Assembly: GCA_964017145.1 (NCBI GenBank)
Contig: OZ024841.1
Coordinates: 1,984,001 to 2,048,000, forward strand
Origin: Agrocybe praecox
Taxonomy: Eukaryota; Basidiomycota; Agaricomycetes; Agaricales; Agrocybaceae
Direction of reading: 5' to 3'
Length of the DNA stretch: 64,000 nucleotides
Shown here: positions 31,670 through 35,762 of the stretch, piece by piece
Layout: each line of letters begins with the position of its first letter
Position numbering within the stretch: position 1 is the first letter of the stretch
The notes under the pieces: generated by a model
The model's database searches: none
Seen by the model: the letters and a program-made list of their open reading frames with translations, nothing else
Told to the model about the DNA's origin: nothing
Made by a program: the position numbers and the translations under genes

Positions 31670-34600
31670 ATGGACCCTACGATCCGAAGGGTACAAGGCA
31701 CAAATTCAAGCCATAGGCGTATCGCGAGCATGGTAAAAACGAACATAATCCGAACAGCCTACAAGTATTGATTAGTATGAATCGCTCAGACACCGGCGCA
31801 GAGGGAGAAACTAAAGCAAGCAGAGCAAAACTTGATTGCTGCCATAGGTTCACTATACCCTGGACCTCCTACTCCTCCCAACCGCATAGACTTTCAGAGG
31901 CGCGCATCTTCCTCCACAGCCCCCGCATATTCGCGCTCGCCGTCGGGTGCAGCCTTATTATCACCGGCCATAGTGGTACCAAGCAGTCCATTATCGACGC
32001 ATAGCTGCGACTTTAGTGATGGACAAACATTGGTAGACGAAGAAACGGACGACGGGGAATCACCGGGACCTGGGATTTCTAAGTATTTGAAGAATAAATA
32101 TTTTGCGGTGAGCATCTTTGACGCGATCTCTCTTACATACCCACATAATTTAATAATGATAATGAATAGACCAGCGGAGATGAAGAACCCTGGCAAGTCG
32201 GTGACGATTTCCAGTTTCCTATTGCGACGCCAAAAGGCGACCCTTGGGAGGTCGCGTACAATTTGACTAAAAAAGAAGATCAAGCTATGTGTGCGATCTG
32301 GAAGGAGGAAATCGATAAATTACTTGTCTTCGTATGTCTATTTATTTATTTCGAGGTCATTTACTGAAACTATCTTCGTTATTCGCAGGCAGGCCTTTTC
32401 GCTGCAACTGTAGTCGCCTTCCTGATTGTATCTTACCAGTTGCTCCAACCAACTGTGGCCGACATGCAGGACATTATGCAAACAACGTTAGTGGCTCTCG
32501 TGAGGGAATATCAGGCAGCAGGCAATATATCACCCGATAATCGTATTTTCCTGTCAGCGGATAAATTTCGACCTTCTCCCTCAGTCTTGCGAATGAACAT
32601 CACTTGGTTTTTGAGCATGACGCTCTCCTTGAGCACAGTACTCATCGGTACCATCTGTCTTCAATGGATTCGAGAATACCAACGAGAAACAAGGTTGGGT
32701 CCCAAGCAAGCTTTCGCAGTCCGTCAGATGCGTTATGATGGACTGGAGTACTGGAGGGTCCCCACTATCTGCTCCTTACTCTCTTTATTCCTACAAGCCG
32801 CCCTTTTATTATTTTTCTGGGGACTTATTGAATTCCTTCACAGCTTGAACACGACGGTGACCTTGATTAATGCCATCGTTATTGGAGTCGTCGCACTCTT
32901 TATGGTGGCTACGATCGTCATGCCGGCTTTTCAATGCATATTCAGCAACAACGACAGGCCACATGGGCATCAATGCGCGTACAAGTCTCCCCAAGCTCGA
33001 ATTTTCTCTGTGTTTGCATTTTGGATATCAATCCAAATAATCAAGGCCATCCGCTGGTGGAAGCGAGATCCTCTTTATCTAGAAAAGAAAAAGGCATTTC
33101 TGGTCAACTTGCTTGCGACTGAAGGGTGGAACTGGGTTTCCATAGACAATCAATGGCAACGCTCCAGAATGGTCGACCTCCCGACTAGGCACGGGTCGAT
33201 GACTCGAGAAAGTAGGGACATACCACACGGGTTAGCATGGTTGGGCAAGAATTTTTCAAATGATCGCGAAGCAATGGGCGTTTTATATCAATTGCTGCAA
33301 ACATTGCATCCTTCCACGAGCTTTCAGACCCTAAAGGCACTGGAAGGCGGCTATGAAGGCGTACTTGACTTCAAGCCATCGGCACACGAAGACGAAGTCT
33401 TATCAGACCTCCAAAGTGCATTTTTGCTACGACATTTGGTGGAGAAAAATCCAGAACTACAAACAGAATCCATCCTGTTCCATCGTATGGAGCTTTTGAT
33501 CCGCATAGCAAATCATACCGCTACAGATAGAGTGCACGAGATGTCGCCTGAAGTATGGGGCCTCATTGAGCAATGTCTGCAGGGGAAAAACTGCTCTGTA
33601 AATCCCTTCAAAGAAGGCCAGGACTATAGCGTCTTGCCGGACTGTAAGTATTCATAAAGTCAAAAAAAAAAAGTGAACTGAAATTTGTCGCTTTTAGATG
33701 TAGTTCGACAAACACTGTGAGCCCAGAACAGGGTTAAAATTACTCGGTAAATGTCACTGAAAAGGGTGCAAGTAGTCTAGAAGAACCGGACAAAAATACC
33801 GGATACACTGGACACAACCAGTTAAACGGGTAGGGACAAACGGGCAGAAAGTACGAGATTACATGGTAAAAAAAAGCATGGTTATGTCCGAATTGCCTAT
33901 GCGAACCGGGTGATTCTGTAACCAGGTTAGAGTAGAAATAGAACCGTTGTAACGAGTCATTAAAAAGCATAGAAAGGGTGGTGATTTTAAGTTGTTGTGA
34001 TAGGCAAAATAACCATTGAGAATCACTGGGTACAGGAAATACCAGGTAGACAAGGGAATCAAATAGGGATAAAGAGCCCATTTTTTGTGTAATAATTTCC
34101 ATCAGGAAAGGAGGGTATTAATCACCATAAAAGAACGAGTATATTTCAAGAGTATGTAAACAGGTAATTATGTCTATGTACGAGAAAGCTGTGTATTCGA
34201 CTGTTACAAATGACTTACGTTACCTGCAGCAGTTGCTGAGTGTAACTAGTGGGGGATATAATCAGTAAGTATATGTGACGACTCATATATGGAGGTGACT
34301 TATGGGCATGATTCCAAGTGCCGGGTGGGGGAAGCTGGTGGGATTGAGACGTCAGAGACACTTGATTTTGTTGTGATGGGGCATAAAAACATACATTGGT
34401 CAATGCTACTAGGCGAGACGTCTAAATGAGCAAAAAAGCAAGTGTAAGTCAGTGTATGTATTGGAAACTAAGCACAAGAGTACGTACCTTTCCAGAATTT
34501 GTACTGTTCGAGCGATTGGCACCCTGCTTTTGAGACTGACTCTGAGGGTTGACCATGATAGCGGCGGGGTAGGCAGCGCAAGAGGATATGATGCTGTGGT

Positions 34601-35762
34601 GTCGCAGAAGAGGGGAGAATGGAAAGGAAGAAAGAGTGATGATGTCGCGGATGTCGCGTTATATTTATAACCCAAGTGAACAAGCCACCTGACTCACTGG
34701 AACCTATGACGTGTCTTTGGACTTGTATAGATATTATCTAAATATTATCTTACTAGATATTCCCGCCGAGTCTATTATCATATATGACTGTATTGCAGGC
34801 ACATTTTACATGTACCACATTATTTTATATCAGTAACAACCTACATATTCGAATTTTGAAATCGCCTTGATACCTGAATCTCGGCCTTGATTTCCGTGGC
34901 TATTTCCCCCTCTGAGGGTTGGCCGGTAAACCGGTGTAAAATACCCTTCAACATATTGTCCCGATTTTCGTGGTTTTTTAGACCTGTTGTACTTAGTGTT
35001 TTTACCTTGATATTCCGGCAATAATATGACATGGTTTCCTTTCTATTTTGGATGGTTTTACGTGGTAAAATGCTCTGCTCCATAGGGTACTAAATACTCG
35101 ACGAAATGACCCGCTAAACGCAACTTCTCACCAGGTATTATTTTTACTAGAATTTCACCAGTTTTGAATGGGGTTATAATGTTTCGCCAAACTATGCATA
35201 TTACCCCTGGCGCGTTATCCGAGCTATTTTACTTAGTTTAACTTTCCACTGGTAAATTTATGGTATTAATACCTAGGTGTGCTACAAAATGAACGATTGC
35301 CATTTACGGCCCCGTTAACATGGTATTTTTCTTTTTTAACCCTATTACATAGTATATTTACCCGGGCCCGGGGTTCACAGTGAAATATTAATTGCTTTTC
35401 AAACACACCTTGGAACGATTAAAGCAGATACGAAATTCCCTCATGACTTATGGAGAGTTGTCGAACCTATGGTATACCAGGTGGTAAAGAAGAAGATCCG
35501 CCGGTTGGACTCGACTCATGAAGAAGATTTGGCTTCCTTCAATGGAAACCTGAAGAATTATGTCAGTCGCGTCGAGCACAGACGACTACCCAACCACATG
35601 TACCGCCGATTTCGCCTATACGTTAATCAGTTCAAAGACAATTTCGGTGTAAAAGATCATCGAGATATGCTTCACTTCTCGACCTTCTTTGACTCGCTAT
35701 GGTCCCTCGAGCGGAAGGTTAATAGCCGCCCCATCCTTGAGGCCCCACCTCACAGGCCATAG
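31670..35762 (+). CDS. DUF6535 membrane protein, tandem copy 1, last exon split by a CACTA element
   Basis: Agaricomycete DUF6535 protein of unknown function. Proposed exons are 31670-31732, 31790-32107, 32170-32331, 32389-33643, 33698-33716 and 35381-35762. Together they total 2199 nt, an intact 732-codon frame. The core reads KEEDQAMCAIWKEEIDKL, LFAATVVAFLIVSYQLLQP (helix), FLSMTLSLSTVLIGTICLQWIREYQRETRLGPKQAFAVRQMRY, LLSLFLQAALLLFFWGLIEFL and GVVALFMVATIVMPAF. A soluble half follows (WNWVSIDNQWQRSRM, GLAWLGKNFSNDREAM). The C-terminal exon resumes beyond the element with KFPHDLWRVVEPMVYQ, matching FPEALWRVVKHVV of copy 2. Without splicing at the element ends the frame stops at the TGA 33718-33720. 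Exon 1 is less certain than the rest. Confidence 0.65.
33710..33712 (+). repeat. 3-bp target site duplication (AAA), left
   Basis: AAA immediately before the left terminal repeat; the same triplet follows the right end at 35383-35385. A 3-bp duplication is the CACTA superfamily rule. AAA alone is weak, but deleting one copy plus the element restores the frame homologous to copy 2. Confidence 0.6.
34215..34556 (-). CDS. small two-exon ORF inside the CACTA element
   Basis: ATG at 34554-34556, exon 34488-34556 (23 codons, MVNPQSQSQKQGANRSNSTN...), donor GTACGT, acceptor TTTAG, exon 34215-34421. Together they give 91 residues rich in Gln, Ser and Pro (FYAPSQQNQVSLTSQSHQLPPPGTW) ending at the stop 34215. 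A TATAAATA box lies 106 bp upstream. A further GTAAGT near the stop suggests more exons are possible. No domain recognised. It may be a remnant of an element-encoded or captured gene. Confidence 0.3.
34662..34669 (-). promoter_or_regulatory. TATA box of the element's internal ORF
   Basis: TATAAATA on the - strand, 106 bp before the ATG at 34556. Spacing fits a fungal core promoter. Confidence 0.3.
35383..35385 (+). repeat. 3-bp target site duplication (AAA), right
   Basis: Triplet directly after the right CACTG end of the element, equal to 33710-33712. Confidence 0.6.

Follow-up and report, generated by a model that had tools for sequence, protein, structure and literature searches.

Insertions of En/Spm and dSpm elements into the maize A2 gene were reportedly found by Menssen et al. 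in 1990 to be spliced at the element termini, and this is said to have been shown in RNA. CACTA ends have been described as mimicking splice sites at times (PMC4219821), and an introner from Aureococcus is described as carrying both splice sites and as adding 12 nt (PMC9860276). In those parts of two reports that treat fungal introner-like elements, these elements have no target duplications and a DNA-transposon route is argued against (PMC9860276, PMC8469720), the lack of flanking duplications being taken by the authors of the latter report to exclude DNA transposition. The origin of new introns is an open question. In the literature searched, outside of which most subscription papers lie, no report of terminal splicing of a CACTA element in a basidiomycete was found.

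The window, i.e. the whole stretch of 64,000 nt from Agrocybe praecox that was analysed (contig OZ024841.1, positions 1,984,001 to 2,048,000), contains a 1,670-bp element with the ends CACTGTGAGC...TTCACAGTG inside the coding sequence of a DUF6535 gene (Table 1; E-value of the match in exon 4, 8.4e-30). An earlier note on this DNA had described the element as a CACTA-type insertion whose terminal repeats form an intron, and the insertion itself is borne out by the termini, by the AAA duplication, by at least 16 elements of the same family in the genome and by a homologous protein that is contiguous at the insertion site. This homologue, a hypothetical protein from Agrocybe pediades (P0001), is the best of 82 protein homologues; across the full query its identity is 63%, and at the insertion site its residues run DYVVRQ-VLTAFQRYL, as against DYVVRQ, the element and ILIAFQTHL in the window. 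Nine of the 82 homologues were aligned, and the eight besides P0001 were too diverged, gapped or short at the insertion site. Named homologues come from Agaricomycetes, e.g. Agrocybe and Psilocybe. The next gene in the window is a diverged paralogue in which the insertion region is uninterrupted and without the element. An element-free allele in the assembly was ruled out because the 3' exon of the host gene matches once only.

Table 1. Features of the DUF6535 gene and of the inserted element (positions in the window; exons and splice signals are predictions)
Feature	Position	Strand	Remark
Host exon 1, with start codon	31670..31732	+	N-terminus likeness to P0001
Host exon 2	31790..32107	+	
Host exon 3	32170..32331	+	
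Host exon 4	32389..33643	+	ORF 32440-33657, most of exon, matches Pfam PF20153 (DUF6535)
Host exon 5	33698..33716	+	19 nt: 15 nt of host plus element CACT
Host exon 6	35381..35762	+	element TG, duplicated AAA, then host to stop
Non-autonomous CACTA/EnSpm-like element	33713..35382	+	1,670 bp
Target-site duplication AAA, left copy	33710..33712		
Target-site duplication AAA, right copy	35383..35385		
Left terminal repeat CACTGTGAGCCC	33713..33724	+	comparison of family ends
Right terminal repeat GGGTTCACAGTG	35371..35382	+	comparison of family ends
Predicted 5' splice site GTGAGC	33717..33722	+	from element base 5 onward
Predicted 3' splice site CAG	35378..35380	+	TCACAG; ends 2 nt before right end of element
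Branch-point candidate TTAAC, nearest	35336..35340	+	41 nt before terminal acceptor; consensus match only
Further branch-point candidates	35315, 35266, 35238	+	consensus match only
Competing acceptor TAG	35350..35352	+	13 nt past TTAAC; first YAG after it
TATAAATA	34662..34669	-	antisense, in 15/15 aligned copies

Splice sites within the terminal repeats, with the donor at 33717 and the acceptor ending at 35380, had also been proposed, and coordinates and sequence agree with this proposal. Joining the two would remove an intron of 1,664 nt and gives an open frame that is in phase, the six predicted exons summing to exactly 2,199 nt, i.e. the 733 codons (stop included) that had been claimed. 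The predicted splice would keep CACT, TG and one extra AAA, 9 nt that are read in the codons ACA CTT GAA and would add Thr-Leu-Glu to the protein. If unspliced, the host frame stops at 33718-33720, the same place as given previously when recomputed. The donor hexamer GTGAGC is common to the element and the predicted second intron of the gene (32108-32169). The prediction is thus that the element is spliced out, wholly or in part, as an intron of 1,664 nt that leaves three codons, an outcome to which we assign about even chances, and by analogy the locus would best be read as a variant, in a fungus, of the terminal splicing described for maize dSpm.

Relatives of the element were surveyed in the 59-Mb genome (347 contigs), for which all element counts are lower bounds. 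Seventeen match places represent at least 16 elements, comprising 14 with both ends, one that is cut at the left (L042) and one right end close to where a contig stops. Each of the 14 left ends begins with CACTGTGAG and each of the 16 right ends closes with CACAGTG, and CAC...GTG terminal inverted repeats, as required of CACTA/EnSpm elements, are present in every one of them (14/14 and 16/16). Exact 3-bp target duplications, the second hallmark of this class, were found for 12 of the 14 complete copies, the remaining two having a 4-bp duplication (GTGC, L047) or an imperfect one (L050). A search of the genome with the left-end pattern gave 13 matches, all of them known copies, and missed L040 by one base, while the reversed control pattern gave 0 matches. 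As far as can be read from the sequence, the anatomy described in the earlier note is right, and it is better founded than was claimed since it is family-wide. Position 9 differs between the two ends, being G in 14/14 left ends and A in 14 of 15 right ends when read inward, so that, L051 excepted, a donor with G at +5 is offered only when the element lies in sense. The footprint of 4+2+3 = 9 nt would keep the frame in any phase for the whole family; hence the clean frame noted at this exon stands as far as phase is concerned, but is not specific to the site. A stop would arise in a spliced copy only with insertion in phase 2 together with a duplication beginning with A (TGA), and L049 is such a case.

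The right end of the window copy (35376-35382) reads CACAGTG, which equals the heptamer consensus of V(D)J recombination. The inward-read end CACTGTG is one base off this heptamer. CACTA/EnSpm elements are classed together with Transib, the source of RAG1 (PMC12730594). On the antisense strand, the TATA sequence TATAAATA, with a pyrimidine-rich stretch after it, is conserved in 15/15 aligned copies and is perhaps what is left of a promoter whose gene the element has lost. The next ATG is missing in 10/15 aligned copies, and therefore a protein encoded by the short element is unlikely. On contig C11 (3559130-3571456; L055, L056), a fragment with the right end of the family was found at a distance of 12 kb from telomere-like AACCCT repeats that make up the end of the contig, and the frames adjoining this fragment are open and present twice.

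Insertion into a host coding exon was confirmed by contiguous homologues for 3 of the 14 complete copies, namely the copy in the window gene, L046 and the copy on contig C3 (835643-849368). The L046 site, between PTYY and AY, is contiguous in P0085 (42% identical), one of four homologues aligned out of 11 matches, the other three not being conserved at the site; the C3 site, between SY and YATQ, is contiguous in P0083 and P0084, its only two matches. All three exon copies are inserted in sense and in phase 1, a sense bias that is not significant at n=3 (1 in 8), and predicted splicing of the L046 and C3 copies leaves no stop and would add Ala-Leu-Asp and Ser-Leu-Asp, respectively. L049 also lies in sense, within a frame of 841 codons that would have the TGA stop even when spliced and that presumably is retroelement-like, as it shows a protease-like motif. 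Further frames of at least 100 codons at L040, L042, L043 and L050 were not supported; a piece of the L040 frame had no Pfam match, the L042 frame extends into masked bases and that of L050 looks low-complexity. Open frames across the joined flanks were determined for 15 copies (the left junction of L042 is not the true one) and compared with those at 1,200 random flank positions, with masked bases read as open (median 117 codons, 90th percentile 578 codons). Six of the 15 empty-site spans exceeded the random median and two exceeded the 90th percentile, which speaks against an enrichment of the family in open frames.

It is probable that the likeness of the ends to splice sites is a by-product of the terminal repeat, with selection acting for transposition only, an origin that is compatible with splicing in the window gene. 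A CACTGT start implies an ACAGTG finish, and any such element therefore carries GT and AG at these places, one in each end, a general point for CACTA-like elements. In all copies the near-perfect inverted repeat is made up of these very bases, which as terminal repeats would be expected to be preserved by transposition, and open frames do not hold a disproportionate share of the copies; the suggestion that the ends are 'tailored for clean removal' thus finds no support. Against a by-product origin stand the position-9 asymmetry and the sense orientation of all three confirmed exon copies, although the numbers are small. It appears rather unlikely that the family is a low-copy intron maker, the terminal repeats of which double as splice sites and leave a 4+2+3 nt footprint in frame, so that sense copies would become introns in one step that could later shrink to normal size. 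Combining 3-bp duplications and a frame-neutral footprint with splice sites inside the terminal repeats, such a family would provide the DNA-transposon route to introns that is missing in fungi.

The C3 copy (13.7 kb; L052, L053) shares the ends of the family and holds KDZ and CxC2 matches, but as a candidate for the autonomous parent it was rejected. It consists of a 1,676-bp family element and a 12,043-bp insert that has CA..TG ends and a 7-bp CATATTT duplication on either side, and the CxC2 (E 7.1e-42) and KDZ (3.6e-40) matches lie between the CATATTT copies. A KDZ transposase as a property of the element family was equally ruled out, these frames being confined to the nested insert. The insert fits Kyakuja, for which 7-bp duplications with CA..TG ends are described (PMC12730594), and would thus be a Kyakuja-like KDZ element nested in a family copy. 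Relatives of its KDZ part were found elsewhere in the genome at 69-71%. Sequence near the ends of the nested element recurs at C1:895908, C12:159565-162012, C6:3471847-3474356 and C6:3546822-3549332, on opposite strands and about 2-2.5 kb apart, and these recurrences are perhaps short non-autonomous derivatives of the nested element. Plavaka was also rejected as the transposase; among 136 genome matches listed, none was inside the large C3 copy. With the C3 candidate removed, the class of the family therefore rests on ends and duplication length. Among the matches found, none longer than 1.73 kb had both ends except the C3 copy with its nested KDZ element, so that no autonomous relative was detected, and one further right end lacked a left counterpart as far as its contig extends.

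The most serious alternative to terminal splicing, which we consider quite possible although at less than even chances, is a simple disruption of the host gene, in which the element would stay unspliced, a 606-residue truncated protein keeping DUF6535 would be formed or the message degraded, and the open 3' exon would reflect a recent insertion. The native introns of the gene are short, the other four predicted introns measuring 54-62 nt, and the predicted 1,664-nt intron is 27 to 31 times as long; neither this length nor the acceptor at 35352 is mentioned in the earlier note. Mean intron length is given as 63 bp for Cryptococcus neoformans and up to 469 bp for other fungi, and in the part of this source concerned with intron length mean values above 1 kb are not reached in fungi (PMC8476143). 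Identity between the window copy and the four copies nearest to it is 94-96%, and the private change of the window copy, a figure that varies with the method, amounts to 15/1,630 strictly unique positions (0.9%), 1.5% by tree or 48/1,607 versus one sister, the same three methods giving 2.4%, 4.6% and 5.9% for the C3 copy. Private changes may predate the present insertion, having been gathered at an earlier site. Private indels and substitutions number 4 to 48 in the window copy and 16 to 90 in the C3 copy. In a simulation of neutral decay (indel share 12%, transition weight 2), the 2,124-nt coding stretch survived with a frequency of 0.075 at 1.0% change and 0.019 at 1.5%, and under this model the intactness of the whole frame is mildly suggestive, as a weak hint, that the host gene may have stayed under selection. 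Survival of the 127-codon 3' exon was 0.64 at 1.0%, 51% at 1.5% and 0.26 at 3.0%; an intact 3' exon is therefore expected without selection and says little about splicing, and purifying selection as proof of splicing was ruled out by this simulation. Moreover, the C3 copy interrupts a reading frame for a membrane-type protein (942 codons, counted from its first likely ATG) that has stayed open on both sides despite 13.7 kb, and open flanks alone are therefore no proof of splicing. However, both ends of the window element fit the splice consensus, the frame closes exactly and terminal splicing of dSpm in maize offers a precedent, all of which argue against a simple disruption.

Signals near the right end bear on where the intron would finish. 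A join at 35352 would give TLIFTRARGSQ followed by TGA, the stop being the tenth codon after the joining codon, and seven further GTRNGY donors lie inside the element. In favour of terminal splicing, no YTRAY with a YAG 8-50 nt on was found in the first 400 nt past the donor on the sense strand. In 10 of 15 aligned copies, including L046, CATGG replaces CATAG and the AG of 35352 is absent. The distance from YTRAY to the terminal acceptor is 41 nt in four of the 15 copies (the window copy included) and at best 62 nt in ten, and in L045 no YTRAY was found within 110 nt of this acceptor; the ten CATGG copies are thus not clearly better introns, because their nearest branch-like motif is 62 nt off or missing. 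Judged by consensus matches, the family as a whole has poor branch signals towards its right end. Pairing of both element ends in the transcript (12 bp, computed at -22.2 kcal/mol) could mask both splice sites. As a 3' splice site, CAG is usually stronger than TAG. Splicing of 33717 to 35352 or to an internal site, which would yield a stop or a partly exonised element, is favoured by 35352 being the first YAG past the nearest branch candidate (13 nt as against 41 nt to the terminal AG) and by the TGA to which this join leads, but appears improbable given the stronger CAG and the fact that the 35352 AG is not fixed, although the copies with CATGG are also without the 41-nt branch candidate.

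For the predicted removal of the element as a terminal intron, the following course can be envisaged. A CACTA-type element inserted into the DUF6535 coding sequence with a 3-bp duplication, and the spliceosome would use the GT donor and the AG acceptor in its ends. Removal would be partial because of the intron length and the competing acceptor at 35352, so that the host gene would keep a reduced activity instead of losing it, much as dSpm alleles of maize do. Splicing function is thus predicted; plants and algae offer precedents for it, and the window copy presents specific obstacles to it.

As in maize dSpm, CACTA-type ends of the window element could supply the boundaries of an intron in a host gene, and donor and acceptor both lie within the termini; unlike dSpm splicing, which was reportedly shown in RNA, splicing here is predicted, the fungal gene has short introns and the donor is at base 5 of a CACTGT end. 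With introners the family shares, as read from sequence only, the location of both splice sites at the ends and a footprint divisible by three, which amounts to 4+8 = 12 nt in the Aureococcus introner (PMC9860276) and to 6+3 = 9 nt here. Introner families are described as having 5 to more than 2,000 copies with median lengths of 30-654 nt and as gene-enriched (PMC9860276), whereas the window family has at least 16 elements, mostly of 1.7 kb, of which 3 of the 14 complete ones are in confirmed host exons and 11 outside; judged by coding exons and open-frame spans, it is thus no gene-enriched introner. Fungal introner-like elements and symmetrical stwintrons have, as the window family does, inverted-repeat ends and new exon positions, but according to the portion of the report dealing with them show no flanking duplications and have splicing supported by RNA, while the window family has 3-bp duplications and splicing that is predicted from the sequence (PMC8469720). 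Membership in EnSpm, assigned by ends only, agrees with fungal EnSpm elements, which are described as carrying the same 5'-CAC..GTG-3' ends and 3-bp duplications (PMC12730594).
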